Positions 15,916 to 40,114 of a stretch of DNA of 64,000 nucleotides are shown here, piece after piece. Below the pieces are notes generated by a model. It was not told where the DNA came from. It ran no database searches and saw nothing but the letters and a program-made list of their open reading frames with translations. The number at the start of each line of letters is the position of its first letter. Positions within the stretch are counted from its first letter, which is position 1. The stretch comes from Oscillospiraceae bacterium (GTDB taxonomy: Bacteria; Bacillota; Clostridia; UMGS1810): assembly GCA_015068825.1 (NCBI GenBank), contig SVJU01000003.1, forward strand, positions 1 through 64,000, read 5' to 3'. A program made the position numbers and the translations under genes.

Positions 15916-16488
15916 TTACGAAAACTTTTTAATTATGGTGTCTATACTTGATATACTTAAAACAGATACAATAAGTGTTGTAATTATTATTTCGGGTATC
16001 ATATACCCTCCATTATAAAGAATTGAATAAATCCACACAGGTTGTCCTTCTGGTGCATATGAGCCCCACAAAATTATTCCCGATAAAAAGTGACACACAT
16101 ACCTTAAAAAAGTAACCAAAAACGAAGAGATAATCATCGAAATTCTTTTTTCTCCCATTAACCGGTAAAAAAATCCCGCCAGACCAAAAACTCCAAAAGC
16201 CAGAATGTAATCTAATAATATCATAAGAAGATATGTAGATATTTCTTCGGTTGGAAGCGTTGTTACAACACCTTTGAAAATCATATTTAAAACTGTGTAA
16301 CAAATTGAAGTGAATATCCCCCACCGTGTAGAATACATAAAAGATATAACAATAACAGGAACCATTGAACCGATTGTTATATCGCCGCCATTTGGTGCTT
16401 TAAAAACTGCAAAAAACGAAAGCACCAGCGACAAGGCAATCATAATTGCACTGTTTGTCAGTTTTTTTGTCATACTCATACTTTTCAT
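15916..16488 (-). CDS. thiT: Thiamine transporter substrate-binding subunit ThiT
   Basis: ThiT is the S component of an energy-coupling-factor (ECF) transporter that binds thiamine at the outer face. The 190 residues form about six membrane helices. Family landmarks are the first loop with NGGDITIGSMVPVI (about 33-46), RWGIFTS near 55, LLDYILAFGVFGLAGFF (about 90-106) and a C-terminal PEIIIT. The shared EcfA/A'/T module is not in the window. A TPP riboswitch with a terminator precedes the gene, which independently supports a thiamine role. ATG is preceded by GGGAG. Confidence 0.93.
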   Translation of the reverse strand: MKSMSMTKKLTNSAIMIALSLVLSFFAVFKAPNGGDITIGSMVPVIVISFMYSTRWGIFTSICYTVLNMIFKGVVTTLPTEEISTYLLMILLDYILAFGVFGLAGFFYRLMGEKRISMIISSFLVTFLRYVCHFLSGIILWGSYAPEGQPVWIYSILYNGGYMIPEIIITTLIVSVLSISSIDTIIKKFS

Positions 16489-16526: not shown

Positions 16527-16555
16527 TTAAAAAAAGCATACCACAAGGTATGCCA
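16527..16555 (-). terminator. Riboswitch expression-platform terminator
   Basis: Minus-strand stem GCATACC/GGTATGC with a TTGT loop and seven or more T residues, located between the TPP aptamer and the thiT ribosome site. It should stop transcription when TPP is bound. Confidence 0.88.
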
Positions 16556-16570
16556 CAAAATGCTATAAAA

Positions 16571-16654
16571 TCCCTCCGTTGGCATTACCCAAATCAGGTT
16601 ACAGGGTCTAAGCGTTACGCGCTTACTCTCAGCCTGCCAAAAGCAAGCTCCCCT
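16571..16654 (-). promoter_or_regulatory. TPP (thiamine pyrophosphate) riboswitch aptamer
   Basis: The minus strand has the classical THI-box elements in order: GGGGAGC, GGCTGAGAG, ACCCTG, ACCTGATTTGGGTAATGCC and GGAGGGA. These are the TPP-binding core of this riboswitch class. The aptamer is followed by a terminator (16527-16555) and then thiT, so excess TPP should switch thiamine uptake off. The 16655-16923 stretch upstream is AT-rich; I see no gene in it. Confidence 0.97.
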
Positions 16655-16923
16655 TTTTTTGCTTATTATAGCATCTTGTTTTATTATTGTCAATACACAT
16701 TTTTTGCTCATTACAAAGATTTATAGTTGTTATTCAAAGGTTTGATTTTTATTTATCTTGTATCATTATTATAATAACAAAGTCTTTAAAGATGTATATT
16801 TTTTACAAAAAATTTATCGTTCAAAATAATATTTCTAATAAAAACAGTAATATCTATGTAGTTTCACAATAAAAAATGATATAAAATAAAAATATAATTA
16901 TTAAAATCAAGGAGGAACTATTT

Positions 16924-17460
16924 ATGCAAAAAAGAAGAATTCTTTGTCTTTTGTTATGTTTAATACTTGTTTTTACACAAGGTGTCAACATAACAGCTCA
17001 AAATGAAAACAGTCCACAAATCAAAAATATTATTTACATGATACCTGATGGTGGTGGTATGGCTCCTTTTTTTCTTGCCGATAAGATAAAACAAAATGGT
17101 GGTTTCTCAAAAGAAATTTATCCCAATCTGACAGAAGTTGAAACAGGAGATGACATTTTATATACCGAAGGTCTTCATGTCGATGATTTATCTGTTTCGG
17201 TTTTGGAAAACAAAACCAATGTAAGATGCGACTCCTACAATCTGACAGACGACTACACAAAAACAGCACATCTTGTAGTATCATATTTTAAAGATGAAAA
17301 ATTGGTTGAATGTTTTGTTAAAGAAATAAGTTTTGAAGATAAACTTACATTCTTAAATGAATATATAACAAGAAAAACAGATGATTTTGACACTGTAAGC
17401 GCATTTGTATGGTCAGATATTTACGACATGACAATTTTAGGTGAATACGCAGTGCAATAA
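16924..17460 (+). CDS. Secreted protein: alkaline phosphatase N-terminal stub joined to a small C-terminal domain
   Basis: The 178-residue protein starts with a signal peptide (about 1-25). Residues 33-57 (IKNIIYMIPDGGGM...) look like the first beta strand and metal-site loop of the alkaline phosphatase superfamily (typical: KNVIxMIxDGxG). No nucleophile Ser/Thr or later metal ligands exist, so it cannot be an active phosphatase. Residues about 65-178 resemble a small beta-rich domain of clostridial secreted proteins that ends in an A-F-V-W-x-x-x-x-x-M pattern (AFVWSDIYDM here). The simplest reading is a large in-frame internal deletion. AGGAGG precedes the ATG, and a terminator follows, so it may still be expressed. 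I assign no function. Confidence 0.7.
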   Translation: MQKRRILCLLLCLILVFTQGVNITAQNENSPQIKNIIYMIPDGGGMAPFFLADKIKQNGGFSKEIYPNLTEVETGDDILYTEGLHVDDLSVSVLENKTNVRCDSYNLTDDYTKTAHLVVSYFKDEKLVECFVKEISFEDKLTFLNEYITRKTDDFDTVSAFVWSDIYDMTILGEYAVQ

Positions 17461-17467
17461 TAAGCTT

Positions 17468-17500
17468 AAAAAGCCTCCAGGACATCCTGGAGGCTTTTTT
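17468..17500. terminator. Bidirectional intrinsic terminator
   Basis: A 12-bp stem (AAAGCCTCCAGGA with TCCTGGAGGCTTT) flanked by A and T runs separates the convergent secreted-protein gene and dus gene, and can serve both. Confidence 0.92.
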
Positions 17501-17503
17501 AAA

Positions 17504-18418
17504 TCACAAAAGATTGTTAATAGCACTGTTTAAATCGCTAAGCTTATTTGCTTTTTTAACCGCTTTTAAAATCTTTTTCTCTTCTTCAAAGTTTTGCATC
17601 ATATAAATCCATATTTCTTTTAGTCGGTGAAGAGTATAAATTTCTGAATTAAGAAGCTTTAAATATTTTTCTTCAAGCATATTTGAAAACAAAATAAGCT
17701 CGCTTGTTTTAAGCTTTTCTCCACCTTTTATTTCGCGAAAAATTGCAGGATTTTTAATCGCTCCTCTGCCAATCATAACAGACGACAAAGAATTATAATT
17801 ATTTTTTATTTTTTCATAATCTTCTTTTGTGTATATGTTTCCGTTATAGCAAAGCTTTGCTTTTGCATTTTTGTACGCCTTATCAAACGAATTCATATCA
17901 GGATATCCCTTATAATATTCTTCGCGTATCCTTGGATGAATAATGAGCTCACTTATTGGATATTTATTGTATATTTTTAAAATTTCATCAAATTCATCAT
18001 GACTATAAAAACCTGTTCTGCTTTTGACCGAAATTTCTACATCCGATTTATTAAAGATATAATCCAAAAACTTATCAAGTGCATCTAAATCTCTTAATGC
18101 ACCTGCTCCGCGCATCTTTTTTACCACAGTACCTGAAGGACATCCAAAGTTTAAATTAACCTTGTTATAACCTAAATCCTTTATCTTTTTTTCAAACTCC
18201 AAAAATGCCATGGCACTTGACGCCATCACCTGAGGTATTACATCAATATTGTTGTTTTCTTTTAAAATATCCCTTAAATTTTTTATACTTAATTTTTCGT
18301 TTTCGGTAGGCACAATAAAAGGCGCAAAATACTCGTCACACCCGCCAAACATCTCTGCATGAGTGTTTCTGTAGGTATATGTTGTTACACCTTCCATAGG
18401 CGCAAAATAAAGCTTCAT
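17504..18418 (-). CDS. tRNA-dihydrouridine synthase family protein
   Basis: FMN-dependent enzyme that reduces uridines in tRNA D-loops. The TIM-barrel starts with the family motif MKLYFAPMEGVT (1-12), the catalytic cysteine is Cys93 in NLNFGCPSGTVVKKMRGAGAL, and the FMN/substrate lysine lies in SVKSRTG (Lys132). Late motifs IIHPR and VMIGRGAIKNP bind the FMN phosphate. At 304 residues it is slightly shorter than DusB (about 320-330). It belongs to a clostridial Dus subgroup whose target uridines I cannot state. ATG has AGGAG upstream. Confidence 0.9.
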   Translation of the reverse strand: MKLYFAPMEGVTTYTYRNTHAEMFGGCDEYFAPFIVPTENEKLSIKNLRDILKENNNIDVIPQVMASSAMAFLEFEKKIKDLGYNKVNLNFGCPSGTVVKKMRGAGALRDLDALDKFLDYIFNKSDVEISVKSRTGFYSHDEFDEILKIYNKYPISELIIHPRIREEYYKGYPDMNSFDKAYKNAKAKLCYNGNIYTKEDYEKIKNNYNSLSSVMIGRGAIKNPAIFREIKGGEKLKTSELILFSNMLEEKYLKLLNSEIYTLHRLKEIWIYMMQNFEEEKKILKAVKKANKLSDLNSAINNLL

Positions 18419-30022: not shown

Positions 30023-31633
30023 ATGTTAAAAAAATTCATGTGCTTATTTATGATTTTGATTTTAGCTGTTTCAAATGTATATGCCGGCGTCTTACCTGCA
30101 TTTTCAGACGGTGATTTTGAAAACGGTAATTTAAATGGCTGGCAAGGTGTTGCAGCAGCCGAAAGTCTGAATGGAAAAATAACTGTTATTTCTGAAAATT
30201 CAATAAAATATTTAAAATATTACGACAGAAAAGACAAATATTCTTTTCCTGCAATTGATGTAACCGATTTTCTTTTGAAAAATGGAACGGGTAAATACAA
30301 AGCATCAGGAAAATTCAAATACTCTTATCCTGATGGCGCAGATAAATCTGATACCACAAAATATGAACCTGTAAAATCTGCACTTGTTCTTTTAAGGACT
30401 CAAAGCAAAACATCAGATATTACAGGTCTTGAAAAGGCATCCTTCAAAGCTTTAAAATCTTTTTCATCGCCAGTGCCCGAAACGTGGTATGATTTTGATG
30501 TAGAGCTTGAAATTACCGATTTTACCTTCGGGAGCGGAAATACTTACAAAGACCCATACAATGCTTTTTTTGGTATAAGAGTTGACAACGAAAATTTTGA
30601 CATTTGCGTTGATGATGTTAAATTTGAATATATTACTGAAGAAAAAGGTCTTCAGGCTGAATTGATTGACAATGCTGCACAAATAAAATACAGTGCAAAA
30701 GAGGTTATATCAAAATTTGGCGAAGAAAATGCAAAAGCACTCGCTCTCATTTATTCAAATCAAAACAAACTTATCGGTGTACATATAAACAACAATTTAT
30801 CCACCTCAACAAGCGATACCGAAACTTTTAAAATAAATATTCCATCAAACGAAAAAGCGTATGTTAAACTTTTTGCAACAAACGCAAAAGATAAATTTAA
30901 TCTTATTTATTCAAAAGATATCGGTCCAAAACAGGCAAAGCTTGTTCTTATAGGCGATTCAATCTGTGTGGATTATCCTCTTAACCATTCTTACCCTATT
31001 CAGGGTTGGGGCTATTATATGCAGGATTTTCTTAACGAAAATATACAGGTTAAAAATTACGCTCACGGCGGTTACAGTACAAAAACCTTTTTAGAAGGTG
31101 CAGGAAACTGGAATGGCATTTTACAAACACTTGAAAAAGGTGATTATGTAATGGTTTCGCTTGGTATTAACGATAGTAGTTCAAACGAAAAATACCATAC
31201 AGATACCGACAAATATGTAGAAAACCTCAAAAAATTTGCAACAGATACCCGTAGCAAAGGTGCAGAAATTATTTTTATCACCCCAACTCCCGGTTCATGG
31301 AGTGAAAACAACTCTATGCAGGGGCGTTCTGAATTTATGAAACAGGCAGCAAAAGAAGCCGATGTTATTGTACTTGATTTAAATGCCAGGTTATATGATA
31401 TCTTTAAGGAAATAGGAAATCTTGACGAAGTAAGATATAAATATTTTATCCCGAATAACTACCTTAAAGATAAAGGTATGACAGATGAACAAATTGCAAA
31501 CGCAAGCGGAAATGTTAAAACCTACGGCTACGATTACACACACTTTAATCCCGAAGGGGCAAAACTACTTGCAACATATATTTTTGAACTTTTAAAAGAA
31601 ACATCATCAGGACTTAACGCATATATAAAATAG
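30023..31633 (+). CDS. Secreted SGNH/GDSL esterase with N-terminal CBM-like module
   Basis: A 536-residue exported protein with signal peptide 1-21. Residues about 27-205 form a beta-sandwich of the carbohydrate-binding (CenC) kind (SDGDFENGNLNGWQ opening). About 210-300 holds a small beta domain related in pattern to that in the 16924-17460 protein. The SGNH hydrolase domain spans about 305-530: block I GDSIC (Ser313), block II NYAHGGYS, block III SLGINDS (Asn383) and block V DYTHFNPEG. This layout resembles rhamnogalacturonan acetylesterases (CE12), so deacetylation of pectin or another polysaccharide is the likely role; the substrate is inferred. AAGGAGG precedes the ATG. Confidence 0.85.
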   Translation: MLKKFMCLFMILILAVSNVYAGVLPAFSDGDFENGNLNGWQGVAAAESLNGKITVISENSIKYLKYYDRKDKYSFPAIDVTDFLLKNGTGKYKASGKFKYSYPDGADKSDTTKYEPVKSALVLLRTQSKTSDITGLEKASFKALKSFSSPVPETWYDFDVELEITDFTFGSGNTYKDPYNAFFGIRVDNENFDICVDDVKFEYITEEKGLQAELIDNAAQIKYSAKEVISKFGEENAKALALIYSNQNKLIGVHINNNLSTSTSDTETFKINIPSNEKAYVKLFATNAKDKFNLIYSKDIGPKQAKLVLIGDSICVDYPLNHSYPIQGWGYYMQDFLNENIQVKNYAHGGYSTKTFLEGAGNWNGILQTLEKGDYVMVSLGINDSSSNEKYHTDTDKYVENLKKFATDTRSKGAEIIFITPTPGSWSENNSMQGRSEFMKQAAKEADVIVLDLNARLYDIFKEIGNLDEVRYKYFIPNNYLKDKGMTDEQIANASGNVKTYGYDYTHFNPEGAKLLATYIFELLKETSSGLNAYIK

Positions 31634-36318: not shown

Positions 36319-36471
36319 ATGAAACATATTAAAACTCTTAAAACTCGCAATCTTTGTGACAGCGCGAAGAATGGCGGATGCGGCGAATGCCAGACTTCTT
36401 GTCAGTCTGCTTGCAAAACAAGCTGTGGTATTGCTAATCAGCAGTGCGAAAACAAAAAAGAAAGCAAGTAA
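36319..36471 (+). CDS. scfA: SCIFF precursor peptide
   Basis: A 50-residue ribosomally made peptide, the substrate of the radical SAM enzyme encoded next. It opens with MKHIKTLK and carries the family core GECQTSCQSACKTSC. SCIFF peptides (six cysteines in forty-five residues) are nearly universal in Clostridia and receive Cys-to-Thr thioether crosslinks. Cysteines are at 13, 21, 24, 28, 32, 36 and 43; Cys13 is additional to the usual six. TGGAGG lies 8 nt before the ATG. A hairpin at 36484-36512 separates it from the maturase gene and probably makes the peptide more abundant than the enzyme. Its biological role remains unknown. Confidence 0.96.
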   Translation: MKHIKTLKTRNLCDSAKNGGCGECQTSCQSACKTSCGIANQQCENKKESK

Positions 36472-36512: not shown

Positions 36513-36542
36513 ATTGTGATAGTATACAAGGAGATTTGTTTT

Positions 36543-37928
36543 ATGATACATAAATATAAACTTGGCGGATACAACATTGTGCTTGATATTTCGTCAGGCT
36601 CGGTACATGTGGTGGATAATGTTGCCTACGACATAATTGATATTTTTGAAGATAATGATAAAAATACCATTATTGAAAAAATATCGGAAAAATATGCTGA
36701 TAATAAAGATATTACAAAAAACGATATAGAAGAATGTTACTTACAAATTGAAGAATTAAAAAATAATGGTCAGCTTTTTGCTCCCGATACATTTGAAGAT
36801 AAAGCAGGGCATTTAAAACAAAAAACATCGGGAGTTATAAAGGCGCTTTGCCTTCATGTAGCACACACCTGCAACTTAAACTGTTCATACTGCTTTGCAA
36901 GTCAGGGAAAATATCACGGCGAGCGCGATGTGATGAGCTTTGAGGTTGGAAAAAGAGCACTTGATTTTCTTGTTGAAAATTCGGGAACAAGAAAAAACCT
37001 TGAGGTTGACTTTTTTGGCGGCGAGCCGCTTATGAACTTTGATGTTGTGAAAAAACTTGTTGAGTATGCAAGAAGCATTGAAAAAGAAAAAAACAAAAAC
37101 TTCCGTTTCACATTAACAACAAACGGTGTTCTGGTTGATGACGATGTTATAGAATTTGCAAACAAAGAAATGAGCAATGTTGTTTTGAGTCTTGACGGCA
37201 GAAAAGAAGTTCACGACCGTTACAGAGTTGACTATAACGGAAACGGCAGCTGGGATAAGATTGTTCCTAAATTTCAAAAATTTGTAACTCTTAGAGGCGG
37301 CAAAAACTACTATATGCGTGGCACCTTTACACATGCAAACCCCGATTTTTTAGAAGATATCAAAAAAATGCTTGAGCTTGGTTTTTATGAGCTTAGTATG
37401 GAGCCAGTTGTGTGTGCCCCCGGCGATAAAGAAGAATTAACCGAAGAAGATTTACCAATAGTACTTGACCAGTATGAAAAGTTAGCAAATCTTATGATAG
37501 AATACGATAAAAAAGGCACACCATTTACCTTCTATCACTATATGATTGATTTAGAAGATGGCCCTTGTATTTACAAAAGAATTTCGGGCTGTGGCTCAGG
37601 AACTGAATATATGGCAGTTACACCCTGGGGTGATTTATACCCATGCCATCAGTTTGTTGGTGAAGAAAAGTTTAAGCTTGGCGATATTTATAACGGTGTT
37701 ACAAATACGAAAATTCAGCAAAGCTTTTCAGATTGTAATGTTTATGCACGCCCCGACTGCAAGGACTGCTGGGCAAAGCTATATTGCTCTGGCGGATGCA
37801 GTGCAAATGCATATCATTCAACAGGCTCTGTCAAGGGTGTTTACAAATACGGATGTGAGCTTTTTAAAAAGAGAATGGAATGTGCTATTATGGTTGCAAT
37901 ATCAAGAGCATTCAGTGAGGAAGAATAA
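36543..37928 (+). CDS. scfB: SCIFF maturase, radical SAM/SPASM thioether synthase
   Basis: A 461-residue radical SAM enzyme. The N-terminal part (1-90) resembles a RiPP recognition element. The SAM cluster cysteines are Cys110, Cys114 and Cys117 in CNLNCSYC, followed by FFGGEPLMNFD. The C-terminal SPASM/twitch region carries many cysteines: CGSGTEYMAV, PCHQF, CNVYARPDCKDCWAKLYCSGGC and a final Cys in KYGCELF. It installs thioether bonds in the SCIFF peptide. I start it at the ATG at 36543, 9 nt after AAGGAG; an upstream GTG precedes the ribosome site. The following decarboxylase gene overlaps it by 1 bp. Confidence 0.96.
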   Translation: MIHKYKLGGYNIVLDISSGSVHVVDNVAYDIIDIFEDNDKNTIIEKISEKYADNKDITKNDIEECYLQIEELKNNGQLFAPDTFEDKAGHLKQKTSGVIKALCLHVAHTCNLNCSYCFASQGKYHGERDVMSFEVGKRALDFLVENSGTRKNLEVDFFGGEPLMNFDVVKKLVEYARSIEKEKNKNFRFTLTTNGVLVDDDVIEFANKEMSNVVLSLDGRKEVHDRYRVDYNGNGSWDKIVPKFQKFVTLRGGKNYYMRGTFTHANPDFLEDIKKMLELGFYELSMEPVVCAPGDKEELTEEDLPIVLDQYEKLANLMIEYDKKGTPFTFYHYMIDLEDGPCIYKRISGCGSGTEYMAVTPWGDLYPCHQFVGEEKFKLGDIYNGVTNTKIQQSFSDCNVYARPDCKDCWAKLYCSGGCSANAYHSTGSVKGVYKYGCELFKKRMECAIMVAISRAFSEEE

Positions 37929-39319: not shown

Positions 39320-40114
39320 TTATTCTTCAATAATTTCTTCTTCGATTATTTCTTCTTCAATAATCTCTTCTTCAATGATTTCTTCTTCAATGATTTCTTC
39401 TTCAATGATTTCTTCTTCGATTACTTCTTCAATAATCTCTTCTTCAATGATTGTTTCTTCGATAATTACTTCTTCAATTACTTCTTCAACTACTTCTTCA
39501 ACTTCAACAGTTGCAATCATAACTTTCTTTTCTGCGCCATCCCAGTCAACCTTGCAACCAAAAGCTTCTGATACTGCACGAAGTGGAATTAAAGTTCTGT
39601 CATTTACAATCTGAGCAGCAACATCTAATTCAACAGCTTCATTTCCAACAAAAAGTGTTGGTGTACCAATCTGTAAAACAACGCTTGTTTCTTCTTTGAA
39701 AGCAGAAACTGTTTTTGTTTCGTCATCCCAGTTAACAACTGCACCAAGTGCTTCAAAAATAACTCTTAAAGGAACCATTGTTCTATCGTTAATTATAACA
39801 GGGTCAACATCAAATACTAAAGCTTCGCCGTCTAATTCAACACTGATTGCTTTTTCAGCAGTTTCTTCAACTACTTCTTCAACAATTATTTCTTCTGTAA
39901 CTTCTTCAATAACTGTTTCTTCAACAATTATTTCTTCTGTAACTTCTTCGATAACTGTTTCTTCAACAATTACTTCTTCTGTAACTTCTTCGATAACTGT
40001 TTCTTCAACTACTACCTCTTCAGTTACTTCTTCAACAACTGTTTCTTCAGCAAATGCCATTGTGCAAGATAAAATCATAGCAACTGCCAAAATGATACTT
40101 AAAAATTTTTTCAT
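39320..40114 (-). CDS. Secreted stalk-domain protein flanked by Glu/Ile/Val repeats
   Basis: A 264-residue exported protein. Signal peptide 1-22 (ALA-like cut at MAFA-EE) is followed by an acidic repeat (23-86), a copper-amine-oxidase-N stalk domain (89-200) with NDRTMVPLRVIFE and NDRTLIPLRAVSE, and a second acidic repeat to the end (201-264). The first repeat has three copies of a 14-residue unit (VEETVIEEVTEEII), the second mainly a 5-residue unit IIEEE. The paired glutamates alternate with branched aliphatics. No enzyme motif is visible. Role is unknown: a surface spacer or a protein that self-assembles into beta-structure is possible. Monocistronic. The family is common on clostridial surfaces. 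Confidence 0.8.
   Translation of the reverse strand: MKKFLSIILAVAMILSCTMAFAEETVVEEVTEEVVVEETVIEEVTEEVIVEETVIEEVTEEIIVEETVIEEVTEEIIVEEVVEETAEKAISVELDGEALVFDVDPVIINDRTMVPLRVIFEALGAVVNWDDETKTVSAFKEETSVVLQIGTPTLFVGNEAVELDVAAQIVNDRTLIPLRAVSEAFGCKVDWDGAEKKVMIATVEVEEVVEEVIEEVIIEETIIEEEIIEEVIEEEIIEEEIIEEEIIEEEIIEEEIIEEEIIEE
39323..39514. repeat. Tandem repeat, 15-bp unit, C-terminal acidic repeat
   Basis: A series of 15-bp units of the AATGATTTCTTCTTC/AATAATTTCTTCTTC type (plus strand), coding the pentapeptide IIEEE in the minus-strand gene. The array is nearly perfect at 39323-39425 and more diverged toward 39514. In-frame unit length means copy changes keep the reading frame. Confidence 0.88.
39851..40048. 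repeat. Tandem repeat, 42-bp unit, N-terminal acidic repeat
   Basis: Three nearly identical 42-bp copies plus partial ones, each coding a 14-residue unit with two Glu-Glu pairs. The copies differ by a few silent or conservative changes. Confidence 0.85.

Follow-up and report, generated by a model that had tools for sequence, protein, structure and literature searches.

The open frame and its surroundings

At positions 16924-17460 of the 64,000-nucleotide stretch of DNA analysed here (the window) lies an open frame of 178 residues that is present once in its host draft genome, an assembly of 2.0 Mb in 62 contigs. The features of the locus, in order, are these:

16910..16915, + strand: ribosome-binding site AGGAGG, read from the sequence, with the ATG 8 nt downstream
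16924..17460, + strand: open frame of 178 residues, from open-frame translation, single copy in its own genome
16924..17001, + strand: signal peptide, approximately residues 1-26, read from the sequence, the cleavage site placed by eye
17017..17148, + strand: start of an alkaline phosphatase (ALP), residues 32-75, from homology searches and alignment with 21 ALPs
17149..17172, + strand: joint region, residues 76-83, from alignments with ALPs, where about 500 ALP residues are missing
17173..17457, + strand: C-terminal domain of exported proteins, residues 84-178, from profile matches of nearly full length
17468..17499, either strand: two-way terminator-like hairpin, from folding, also listed as an inverted repeat

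The initial annotation had given this gene both a strong ribosome-binding site and a terminator. The ribosome-binding site is there, AGGAGG at a distance of 8 nt from the start codon, but the terminator is weakened as a signal of this particular gene: the hairpin folds on both strands (-23.6 and -24.1 kcal/mol) and sits between the open frame and a convergent gene (17504-18418), so that it carries little information on expression of the frame. A simple terminator scan listed no site. Promoter-like sites on the two strands of 16640-17560 number 6 versus 5.7 in shuffles, and one of them (16802-16830, + strand) precedes the open frame in a scan that as a whole stands at the shuffled level. In codon usage and GC3 the two halves of the frame both stay within approximately 1 standard deviation of what 24 other window genes show, hydrophobic N-termini comparable to that of the frame are also present in the aligned full-length ALPs, and an NCBIfam search with the frame returned no match.

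Several other features of the window deserve mention in their own right. Upstream, a TPP riboswitch on the - strand (16554-16664) precedes a gene that by eye is thiamine-transporter-like (15916-16488). Further downstream, a 50-residue peptide with seven cysteines (36319-36471), which we take to be SCIFF-like, is encoded directly before a radical SAM protein (36516-37928) with a sub-threshold SPASM match, and an exported protein (39320-40114) has long EEVTEE / EEIIEEE repeats that, judged by eye, flank a stalk-type domain.

An alkaline phosphatase start and its missing middle

The initial annotation had read the beginning of the protein as that of a secreted ALP, and the homology searches agree: the best ALP match (L010, 691 residues) has 48% identity over 96 positions, covering query residues 4-92, with an E-value of 5e-22 when composition adjustment is off. 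At that level the N-terminal similarity is, on the sequence comparison, not a product of chance. L010 itself matches the ALP family model PF00245 at 7.9e-52; the open frame has no match to PF00245 at E up to 10, and hence none over the cut-off of that model. In the alignment with 21 ALPs the similarity spans IKNIIYMIPDGGGMAPFFLADKIKQNGGF and YPN as far as VETG and then ends, the open frame continuing with DDILYTEGLH and the ALPs with a KDYLVG-like stretch followed by the TDSA nucleophile motif. Within IPDGGG (residues 40-45), D42 aligns with an Asp in all 21 ALPs and is the first metal-ligand Asp of the ALP N-terminal strand. A search of all 178 residues of the frame for TDSA found none, and the nucleophile is as absent as had been claimed.

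The extent of the loss is another matter. The ALP stretch is not limited to 25 residues, as first proposed, since the homologous part comprises approximately residues 32-75, and the joint lies not at residue 57-65 but after G75, the last residue of VETG (17148/17149). From VETG or its equivalent to the C-terminal domain there are 505-512 residues in L010, L036 and L037, the three ALPs with a terminal domain of this kind, on which the estimate is based, versus 8 in the open frame; this replaces the earlier figure of about 400 missing residues with one of about 500, which include the nucleophile and the later metal ligands.

Full-length relatives of the ALP part retain the nucleophile motif. Query residues 26-95 found matches in 13 of 391 class genomes, the host included, and 11 of these (the host and G188 aside) hold 20 ALP places, each with TDSA; two loci, L011 and L012, are apparently the same records as L038 and L042 and were counted once. 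In the order of G223, 5 of 95 genomes match at 8 places, of which 5 are new and have TDSA without exception. With the whole open frame as query, 2 of 398 phylum genomes match at E up to 0.001, the host included, and the other (G589) encodes a 554-residue ALP frame in which TDSA is present. With L010 added to these 20, 5 and one, TDSA is kept in all 27 of the full ALPs that were compared and that match the N-terminus of the frame. When genome_contigs was scanned at those loci that contain any of six peptide patterns, 3 loci were returned, each of them an ALP. One of the ALP genes apparently has a mobile element inside it: in L012 460-8503 (apparently the same as L042), from another Clostridia genome, the ALP diverges from its relatives past EYAKQRTD, and downstream of the ALP part lie mobile-element genes, for a serine recombinase, a MobA/VirD2-type relaxase and an AAA ATPase.

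Homologues of the same short size in distant species had been named in advance as the mark of a genuine small family. We looked for them in genome_contigs (within the pattern limit), in the 391 class, 398 phylum and 95 order genomes, and found none; as no second short form emerged from these searches, we set a new small family aside. Two candidates were rejected along the way, a 271-residue frame of G188 (E 1.1e-4), which is unrelated and by eye HD-domain hydrolase-like, and a 365-residue frame of G812, which is an ALP cut by a contig end. Viral contigs searched with the open frame and with L010 gave no match, nor did plasmids and phages searched with the open frame; solved structures yielded nothing meaningful (best E 0.16). 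The titles and abstract beginnings searched contained no description of the gene or of its C-terminal domain.

Within the host's own family of 16 genomes, PF00245 over the Pfam cut-off is found in none, the host included. The sole match of any kind (G004) reaches 18.7 bits, below the cut-off of 24.4, and by eye belongs to a phosphoglycerate mutase-like protein. When L010 was searched against the same 16 genomes its sole strong match was the open frame, three others having E-values of 0.018-0.048, and the host genome holds no further pieces of L010 at E up to 0.1. A full-length ALP parent at the same place in a close relative was not found in this family: in G010, which the two flanking genes point to as the nearest relative, those genes are on different contigs, and in G001, of the same genus, neither the N-terminus of the frame nor either flanking gene has a match at the limits used.

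The C-terminal domain and the origin of the joint

The second half of the protein had been likened to a domain common to exported proteins, and this likeness held. Parts of residues 55-176 match long proteins when the whole frame is searched against the family, and at E up to 0.1 a domain profile of eight copies, that of the open frame among them, has matches in 14 of the family's 16 genomes, with 11 places in the host genome including the open frame. The frames concerned are mostly several hundred residues long (at least 400). Leave-one-out scores for 34 distinct copies, gathered from loci by a model containing the copy of the open frame, range from 28.3 to 80.0 bits; two loci, L085 and L086, entered only the pooled open-frame scans for the domain. 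Against a profile built without it, the domain of the open frame scores 33.2 bits and ranks 30 of 34, and by this score the C-terminal similarity, too, is not chance. The searches have in this way brought to light a domain that is common in the exported proteins of the family, and for which a Pfam scan of three copies found no model over cut-off.

In many exported proteins of the family the domain ends like KAFVWDSL. At L118 1432-1911 in the host genome it stands directly after a signal peptide, in a protein that runs off the contig; two short frames with the domain in the same genome (C8 and C18 of G000) also run off contig ends and are not established small proteins. Elsewhere in the window, an exported protein that by eye is an SGNH-type hydrolase (30023-31633) has a weak domain match in mid-protein (E 0.04).

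Do ALPs carry this domain? Eight of the 21 class-search ALPs leave their contig or stretch and their ends are not visible; among the 13 ends seen, 3 have the domain, in L036, L037 and L010 (leave-one-out scores of 51.1, 47.9 and 35.9 bits). L042 is the ALP apparently broken by a mobile element, L034, which is nearest in its N-terminus, and the remaining seen ends finish otherwise, and L038 and L040 have weak domain matches in the protein interior.

What kind of event, then, formed the joint? We propose that the open frame is the remnant of a secreted ALP gene, from which about 1.5 kb with nearly the whole catalytic domain was probably lost in one in-frame event, joining ALP residue 75 to the linker of a C-terminal domain such as some of these ALPs and many other exported proteins of the family have. 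The simplest route would be a deletion within one ALP gene carrying such a domain, and a deletion running from an ALP gene into a neighbouring gene with such a domain would fit nearly as well. In support, there are full-length ALPs that begin in the same way, three of which also have a C-terminal domain of this kind, and both ends of the gene match a longer gene type, the 3′ end by kind of domain and not by nearest relationship. The undecayed ALP part, the codon usage of both halves and the lack of other L010 pieces in the host genome speak for it too. Against it count the ALP ends, the domain being found at 3 of the 13 seen, and the family genomes, among which a full-length ALP was not found. 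That the gene is a recent in-frame deletion remnant of a secreted ALP gene, catalytically dead, is in our judgement likely; the comparisons show the two homologies, the missing middle and the single copy, and from them we infer a single deletion, a recent loss and a product without a role.

The 3′ end is where two genes might have been involved, the deletion having fused the ALP start with the terminal domain encoded by an adjacent gene for an exported protein. The profile of the domain is in 14 of 16 family genomes versus ALP in none, and when the domain is searched as a single sequence its matches are non-ALP proteins, including L002 of the host genome, with L010, L036 and L037 not listed at E up to 1. 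Nor does the domain lean towards the ALP copies: a model of these three gives it 7.7 bits, and 60 random triples of non-ALP copies give a mean of 13.1 bits, 44 of the 60 scoring at least as high as the ALP triple. This test of preference is a weak one, however, because the three ALPs come from families other than that of the host, and domain copies within the host family may resemble each other through the shared family. A model of the open frame and four non-ALP copies reaches the ends of L036 (E 0.0016) and L037 (E 0.0061) weakly and that of L010 not significantly (E 0.3), these E-values being for 22 sequences; higher figures for the ALP ends come from models containing ALP copies. A fusion moreover requires an ALP gene and a suitable neighbour side by side, whereas a single ALP gene with the domain is a simpler route and such ALPs exist, and we consider a two-gene origin unlikely. 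The initial annotation is well supported in its in-frame loss joining an ALP start to another domain; the domain itself may have come from the ALP or from a neighbour.

A joint in a draft genome also raises the question of whether it was made by the assembler. Of the genomes searched only one showed the short form, a draft of 62 contigs, and two stretches might have been falsely joined in it. Yet the gene and its flanks lie within one contig of 84,844 bases, the reading frame is intact across the joint, and no further ALP piece occurs in the genome. The matches listed, from a search in which 40 of 80 candidates were scored, include no long genome repeat over the joint, those crossing it being of approximately 20 bases at 90-95% with E-values of 0.16 and 3.65, which is chance level. 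An assembly error is, in our estimation, quite improbable.

Age, product and relation to known systems

If the joint arose by deletion in an ALP gene, how long ago did this happen? Residues 32-76 of the ALP part score 2.92 per column, the 21 ALPs 2.72-3.28, and departures at strongly conserved positions number 2 in the open frame and 0-2 in the other ALPs. The ALP part is as typical as that of intact enzymes, which implies either a loss that is recent relative to the divergence of ALPs or retention of the short protein. On this ground the loss of the ALP middle looks recent, and the undecayed ALP part and clean ribosome-binding site would also be consistent with a gene maintained by selection.

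If it is made, the product would be exported and would consist of little more than a fragment of enzyme core and a single small domain. That fragment, of 44 ALP residues, is a small piece of the core and probably does not fold alone. The product would be unable to hydrolyse phosphate esters because it lacks TDSA and the later metal ligands; from what is known of ALPs, the retention of IPDGGG with the loss of TDSA and everything downstream excludes phosphatase activity.

Could a small exported protein nevertheless have been kept for a role of its own, in binding or surface attachment, through the ALP signal peptide? Its signal peptide, ribosome-binding site and frame are intact, its ALP part is undecayed and its domain is widespread in exported proteins, but no homologue of the same size was found in the genome sets searched, the domain copy is among the less typical in the leave-one-out ranking, and it is difficult to imagine what the 44 ALP residues would do. 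The two AlphaFold2 models give nothing firm: both are of low confidence (mean pLDDT 50.2 and 54.9), and the second, of a 96-residue domain construct, folds residues 32-94 into four strands and one helix. None of the results supports the decoy or binding role suggested in the initial annotation. We regard retention for such a role as quite improbable, and slightly less probable still is a new small exported protein in which an unnamed surface or binding domain travels by the ALP signal peptide and was kept by selection after the enzyme was lost. Most likely, the open frame is not a new kind of protein but an ordinary gene remnant that has stayed in frame. By itself such a remnant is of little importance, and what it illustrates is that an in-frame remnant can look like a neat, small secreted protein, which annotation might then list as hypothetical.

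Compared with the ALPs of family PF00245 (L010, L036, L037), the open frame likewise has a signal peptide, a IKNIIYMIPDGGGM-type start that reaches VETG or its equivalent, and a C-terminal domain of the kind seen in these three, but it is missing about 500 residues, with the nucleophile, the later metal ligands and the whole middle, and has no match to PF00245. Like the exported proteins of the host family it has residues that fit the domain profile nearly full length (84-178), whereas in the open frame the domain is almost alone and elsewhere it is mostly in frames of at least 400 residues. Gene remnants formed by internal deletion are a known kind of bacterial pseudogene, and the open frame resembles them in that the two ends of a longer gene are kept, the middle is lost and the form occurs in one genome; it differs in that its frame is kept and it would pass as a small exported protein.
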